Part shown: piece after piece, positions 63,238 through 63,852 of the stretch
Position numbering within the stretch: the first letter of the stretch is position 1
How the letters are laid out: every line of letters begins with the position of its first letter
NCBI GenBank assembly: GCA_002255985.1
Contig: NKIR01000005.1
Span: forward strand, 62,001 to 126,000
Direction: 5' to 3'
Source of the DNA: Sphingomonadaceae bacterium PASS1
Lineage (GTDB): Bacteria; Pseudomonadota; Alphaproteobacteria; Sphingomonadales; Sphingomonadaceae
Length of the DNA: 64,000 nucleotides
The notes under the pieces: model-generated
The model's database searches: none
The model's input: the letters and a program-made list of their open reading frames with translations, nothing else
What the model was told of the DNA's origin: nothing
Translations under genes and position numbers: made by a program

Positions 63238-63852
63238 TTATAAACCGGCCTCTACCGCGATGCGGATAGCTTCAGCAGTGGTCGCGACGCCCAACCGGTC
63301 CATCAACAACGCGCGGTGCATTTTGACCGTTTGCTCGCTGAGCCCAAGCCGTAACGCAATATGCCTGTTGAGATGCCCAAGCGCCATTTCGGCAAGCACC
63401 TCGCGTTGCCGCCGTGACAACGCCTTCACCGCGATTGCCGCAGCAATACGTCGATTCTCATGGGCCATTGGCGCGCCGGGCTCAAGTTCGACCTGCGAAC
63501 CAAGAAAGAACTCAAGCTCACCGTCTTCATCAAACAACGGCGCGACCAGCACTGCATTGCGAAAGGGGGTGCCATCGCATTTGTAATTGAGGATTTCGAA
63601 AAGGACGGGCGCATGACGTTTAACCGCGCTGCTTATTGTTTCACTCAACCATGGCTCGGCGGTTGGGCCAGCCAAAAATTTGCAGTTCCGCCCAATGATT
63701 CGGTGTTCGGCGTAACCCGTCAGATCAATAAACGCGGCATTGCACGCGATGATGGGGTTATCCGGCTGACGCGGATCACTTATGACAGACGCGACAGTAC
63801 TGTTCGACATCAGGACATCGAGCCACGGTTTTATTTGTTTAAGAACAGCCAA
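63238..63852 (-). CDS. LOV-domain / LuxR-type HTH protein (putative blue-light-responsive regulator)
   Basis: GRNCKFLAG photoreactive-Cys motif; NYKCDGTPFRNAVLVAPLFDEDGELEFFLGSQVE; C-terminal LSRRQREVLAEMALGHLNRHIALRLGLSEQTVKMHRALLMDRLGV. Confidence 0.88.
   Translation of the reverse strand: MAVLKQIKPWLDVLMSNSTVASVISDPRQPDNPIIACNAAFIDLTGYAEHRIIGRNCKFLAGPTAEPWLSETISSAVKRHAPVLFEILNYKCDGTPFRNAVLVAPLFDEDGELEFFLGSQVELEPGAPMAHENRRIAAAIAVKALSRRQREVLAEMALGHLNRHIALRLGLSEQTVKMHRALLMDRLGVATTAEAIRIAVEAGL

Follow-up and report, generated by a model that had tools for sequence, protein, structure and literature searches.

An EL222-type LOV-HTH protein, encoded on the minus strand of the window (G000:C6:62001-126000, the whole stretch of 64,000 nucleotides that was analysed), is predicted to dimerise in blue light and to activate the xanthorhodopsin-blh genes that diverge from it, a reading to which we give a probability of roughly 0.7. 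The preliminary description of this DNA recognised the regulator and called its target genes unknown; this last point can now be improved, as synteny, a conserved operator and the way in which LOV-HTH was lost make the divergent xanthorhodopsin-blh pair the predicted target. What is new is the predicted circuit leading from a LOV-HTH protein to a rhodopsin, which comparative genomics supports well; the protein type itself is known. Positions of the features are collected in Table 1.

Table 1. Features of the LOV-HTH/rhodopsin locus (window positions; L054 entries lie beyond the window).
Feature	Position	Strand	Basis
LOV-HTH (EL222-type) CDS, 204 aa, TTG start	63238..63852	-	ORF, Pfam and EL222 alignment
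Shine-Dalgarno-like GAGGGGGGG, 7 nt 5' of TTG	63860..63868	-	sequence
LOV (PAS) domain, residues 19-121	63490..63798	-	alignment to solved LOV domains; PAS_9
Codon of photoactive Cys57 (GRNC)	63682..63684	-	present in every full-length family member aligned
LuxR/GerE-type HTH, residues 144-199	63256..63423	-	PF00196, E=7.5e-15
Predicted operator ACATGGTATAAAGGATAGGTTG, between the two divergent genes; core 12-mer at 63948-63959	63944..63965	+	top genus motif; alignment to sites with the EL222 consensus in other genera
Predicted -35 TTGACA of the rhodopsin promoter, first base 9 nt after operator centre	63963..63968	+	comparative alignment
Probable -10 TAACCT, 16-nt spacer	63985..63990	+	comparative alignment
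Start of rhodopsin leader	63991..64000	+	
Xanthorhodopsin CDS, beginning at window-equivalent 64037	L054:6037-6783	+	
blh, after rhodopsin	L054:6836-7765	+	

Pfam searches of the minus-strand frame returned PAS_9 (4e-14) and GerE/LuxR HTH (7.5e-15), and matches to the EL222 structures 8a5r and 3p7n (E = 1.6e-68 and 2.7e-68) extended over residues 9-204, with 112 of 196 residues (57%) identical to crystallised EL222. The LOV domain is followed directly by the LuxR-type HTH within the overall length of about 200-220 residues that marks the type, and the photoactive Cys in GRNCxFL is accompanied by the flavin-contact Asn/Asn/Gln set (C57, N89, N99 and Q120). Judged by its full-length sequence, the protein is an unremarkable addition to the EL222-type LOV-HTH proteins. 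All residues of the LOV photocycle are present, from which FMN binding and adduct formation are predicted for the window protein. The preliminary description holds up well here: the boundaries it gave for the reading frame were exact and now receive their missing strand (minus), GRNCKFLAG with its photoreactive Cys (C57) and the stretches NYKCDGTPFRN and FFLGSQVE were all found in the translation, the LuxR-type HTH that it placed directly after LOV is the GerE/LuxR match at residues 144-199, and the resemblance to EL222 in architecture is supported by the full-length match (E about 1e-68). A second LOV-HTH paralogue, 53% identical, lies elsewhere in the same genome (L055:8272-8910, G000:C26), 71 bp after murA; this murA linkage is kept throughout the genus, while an operator and a structured RNA are located 3' of the gene in some of the distant members.

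The TTG start codon at 63852 is well fixed because GAGGGGGGG sits at 7 nt and an in-frame stop lies two codons upstream. Pairwise comparison with the two nearest orthologues gave a dN/dS of 0.13, indicating purifying selection on a maintained gene. The window copy nevertheless evolves faster than its sister copies, as seen from a longer branch in the LOV-HTH tree, and its LOV domain carries an extra cysteine, Cys91 (NYKCDG, about 63580-63582), that was found in none of the aligned relatives. These traits, the TTG start, the LOV-HTH remnants in five relatives and a promoter that already has TTGACA would fit a copy that is decaying or no longer photoactive. However, the frame is open, the photocycle residues are kept and dN/dS is low, and we hold such decay to be very improbable. 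On the other side of the gene, a glycine-zipper protein with repeated GYYD.RGRW-like motifs is encoded at window 62073-63131 and is variably present between LOV-HTH and glnA in relatives.

The rhodopsin CDS begins 184 bp from the LOV-HTH start, is transcribed divergently and encodes a 248-residue protein of the bacteriorhodopsin family (PF01036, 1.6e-39), and the blh that follows encodes a beta-carotene 15,15'-dioxygenase, the retinal-forming enzyme (PF15461, 1.1e-38). Best matches of the rhodopsin were psXR, Gloeobacter rhodopsin (GR) and xanthorhodopsin (XR), each with E<1e-76; it carries DWLLTVPLLLIE at 92 (DTE pattern), DLIAK at 224 in the Schiff-base Lys region, and the same Gly in LWG as XR. 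DTE is the pattern of proton pumps, the Lys is that of the Schiff base, and the Gly lines the carotenoid site in xanthorhodopsin. With the DTE-type motif, the Schiff-base Lys and a xanthorhodopsin-like sequence found together, the divergent gene is assigned as encoding a xanthorhodopsin-type pump, for which proton pumping is predicted. A small hairpin (GACACC-cgtaat-GGTGTC, L054:6000-6022) is located in the 5' leader just ahead of the rhodopsin Shine-Dalgarno and is alike in several relatives. Trees for the locus (window 63238-64000 and L054:6037-7765) conflict, the window LOV-HTH grouping with G006/G443 (99/93) and rhodopsin-blh with G008/G014 (100/100), which suggests recombination near the rhodopsin start.

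Every close orthologue of the window LOV-HTH (at least 70% identity, with enough flank) has a divergent rhodopsin beside it. Among the 45 genomes of the genus, 27 contain a rhodopsin and 12 an intact copy of the window-type LOV-HTH, which is rhodopsin-adjacent in 12/12. Across 401 genomes of the family, LOV-HTH was counted in 108 (E<=1e-55; one tandem case, G413, comes from a weaker threshold) and rhodopsin in 31, the two being neighbours in 17 of these 31, spanning 10 genera, with 5 divergent, 11 tandem and 1 convergent arrangements; several rhodopsin genomes are without any LOV-HTH. The divergent copies make up a single clade of the LOV-HTH tree (99/98) and the tandem copies fall in three places, with one tandem copy being sister to EL222 itself in the sampled tree (100/91). 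Given that rhodopsin-linked LOV-HTHs lie in separate clades, the linkage arose or persisted in several lineages.

The predicted site region (63930-63975) contains the operator sequence GGTATAAAGGAT, and GGTATAAAGGATAGGTTG, an 18-nt part of the full site, has a single genomic occurrence when up to 3 mismatches are allowed, namely at the rhodopsin promoter. Prior-free motif discovery upstream of the rhodopsins of other genera yielded TACGGCCcAAAGtCCGTATAG, and the motif TACGGCCcAAAGtCCGTATAGt from these upstreams reached a log-likelihood of 179 vs 68-72 in shuffles; with tandem loci alone, the top motif came instead from the LOV-HTH CDS, whose conserved 3' end falls inside the 300-bp windows. 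The discovered motif contains RGNCYWWRGNCY, the consensus operator of EL222 as given in PMC10521638. Exact copies of this consensus are found near the LOV-HTH gene in other genera, while the window's clade has a conserved variant, RGNAYWWRGNAY (10/12), that is two positions off and RGNAY-based where EL222's is RGNCY-based; matches to the EL222 consensus were not enriched in that clade. A recognition-helix change from SEKTVK to SEQTVK was considered as the cause of the altered operator and dropped, the Gln being present also in G366 and G425. A genome search with the extended tandem-type operator gave 13 matches vs 27 for the reversed control, and thus no additional target genes are claimed. 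The operator site was present in 17 of 19 rhodopsin genomes with LOV-HTH vs 1 of 4 without (Fisher 0.02, kinship ignored), counted by eye at a PWM cut-off of 15 with scores that are optimistic because the PWM was trained on the same sequences. In G305, which has rhodopsin and no LOV-HTH, the motif is still present.

No promoter was called by strict sigma-70 scans between the two genes, so the promoter elements are those seen in comparative alignment. Each of the two operator types stops three bases ahead of a TTG/TAG-like -35, giving a common offset, and a TA-rich -10 follows 16-17 nt beyond the -35 in many aligned rhodopsin promoters. An operator upstream of the -35 confers blue-light activation in engineered EL222 promoters (PMC9614035), and the predicted placement matches theirs as well as that of class-II activator sites. 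An EL222-type photoreceptor at this promoter could also be a repressor, in light or in the dark, as EL222 represses when its operator sits inside a promoter (PMC9614035) and the predicted operator touches the -35. However, the operator lies upstream of the -35 rather than between -35 and -10, and lineages with an intact LOV-HTH mostly have weak -35 sequences and LOV-less lineages consensus ones, as expected on loss of an activator. Activation is favoured over repression by this operator position and loss pattern, and we consider repression unlikely.

Five genomes of the genus (G020, G018, G449, G442 and G448) retain only a remnant of LOV-HTH next to an intact rhodopsin, and no remnant was found beside the rhodopsin in G004, G007, G010 and G445. 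The -35 is TTGACA in 9/9 genomes with a decayed or missing LOV-HTH, and the distal operator half is mostly drifting. Of 14 genomes with an intact LOV-HTH, 11 combine a poor -35 (TTGTTG, as in G008, TTGCTG, TTGTCC, TTGAAG) with a nearly invariant ACATGGTAT. The window genome, G006 and G443 are intermediate, having the consensus -35 TTGACA despite an intact LOV-HTH. The association between -35 state and loss has a p of 3e-4 with shared ancestry ignored, the -35 state changing only about twice on the tree, and placing the LOV-HTH losses in one clade was rejected (AU p 1.7e-5). Read most simply, these sequences suggest that the activator became dispensable through a promoter-up change. Because the promoter of the window species already has a consensus -35, it may no longer depend fully on the regulator.

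The genome of EL222 itself (G249, 100% match) does not belong to the set carrying this rhodopsin. EL222 and close relatives of it have exact operators just 3' of the gene, followed by a conserved block, TTTCCTCCTGTCCCTCCCGAAGCG, and by an inverted repeat that is GC-rich and has a T-run. In the 140 bp 3' of the gene, the operator scored at least 15/16 at 28 of 90 LOV-HTH loci, many of the 90 being closely related to one another, vs 0.3% of mononucleotide-shuffled controls. A C-rich-loop fold follows the operator in 30 of 43 loci scoring at least 14 vs 9 of 34 low-scoring loci, with mean folding z of -3.5 and -1.7, respectively, the best of three offsets being taken for both groups alike. Seven aligned sequences of the element share a common 19-pair structure in which three pairs are changed on both sides, and it was unmatched in Rfam at the gathering threshold, the only hit being a sub-threshold one to ar7 at a single locus (28 of 60 bits). 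The element is thus predicted to be, probably, a small RNA controlled by EL222-type proteins. EL222-type operators with RNA-like elements bearing CCUCC/CCCUCC loops were seen at L179-L182, L067, L068, L070-L072, L126, L060-L062 and others. No such operator was found 3' of LOV-HTH in the window's clade, where the operator is on the opposite side, in the rhodopsin promoter.

That most of the 108 LOV-HTH genomes in the 401-genome family are without this rhodopsin, and that many have the operator beside a structured RNA instead, raises the possibility that the real targets are elsewhere, be they a small RNA or genes for DNA repair or stress, and that the adjacency reflects a hitchhiking cassette. 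However, hitchhiking poorly explains three arrangements and separate clades, the genus operator is single in the genome and placed at the rhodopsin promoter, and the motif is found upstream of rhodopsin even when LOV-HTH is at another genome location. We therefore regard targets elsewhere as distinctly unlikely. For the Sphingomonadaceae EL222 family as a whole, we put forward, at somewhat less than even odds, that each protein may serve mainly one promoter adjacent to its own gene, leading to an undescribed structured RNA that exposes CCUCC-type loops in many lineages, including that of EL222, or, with the same operator, to a proton-pumping rhodopsin in several, in tandem or divergently, so that the flavin sensor would be a dedicated on-switch of retinal phototrophy, repeatedly made dispensable via a promoter-up change.

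EL222 is masked in the dark state and its dimerisation is induced by light (PMC4844311). For the window LOV-HTH we infer flavin photochemistry, DNA binding, light dependence and the direction (activation), with light-driven release of the HTH taken by analogy from EL222. Activation of the rhodopsin promoter would then proceed as follows. In the dark, the LOV domain would keep the HTH inactive, and blue light would form a Cys57-FMN adduct that frees the HTH for dimerisation. The dimer would occupy the predicted operator abutting the -35 of the divergent promoter (63944-63965) and, as a class-II activator, bring RNA polymerase to the xanthorhodopsin and blh genes, leading to joint induction of a retinal-based proton pump and its chromophore enzyme by blue light. 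If true, one photoreceptor would decide the timing of another's synthesis, which would show how rhodopsin phototrophy is timed in some freshwater bacteria, and the genus would supply natural knock-outs. EL222 is in wide use in optogenetics, no natural target of it was named in the open-licence PubMed Central papers surveyed, and these loci offer a concrete candidate target for its type, namely a xanthorhodopsin-blh promoter with the operator where engineers put it for blue-light activation. Searches of open-licence PubMed Central turned up no account of a rhodopsin under LOV-HTH control; earlier reports elsewhere are possible.

Among known systems, EL222 of Erythrobacter litoralis HTCC2594 (PDB 3p7n, 8a5r) shares with the window protein the LOV-HTH architecture, a similar length, the photoactive Cys and the LuxR-type HTH, whereas its adjacent operator leads to a predicted RNA and that of the window to a rhodopsin. 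Bat of Halobacterium, a PAS-containing HTH regulator, has been reported to mediate bacteriorhodopsin production (PMC4844311). Unlike the window LOV-HTH, Bat is archaeal, without the photocycle Cys and of another architecture, and the rhodopsins are only distantly related. The xanthorhodopsin of Sphingomonas sp. AAP5 is a family-level relative that is likewise encoded in a xanthorhodopsin-blh operon, but that operon includes a histidine kinase and shows minimal expression, with a LOV protein unmentioned (PMC7762795). Finally, the engineered pBLind/BLAT promoters place the operator upstream of the -35, as in the natural promoters analysed here (PMC9614035); they are synthetic, whereas the window-type layout is natural and lies ahead of a rhodopsin gene.
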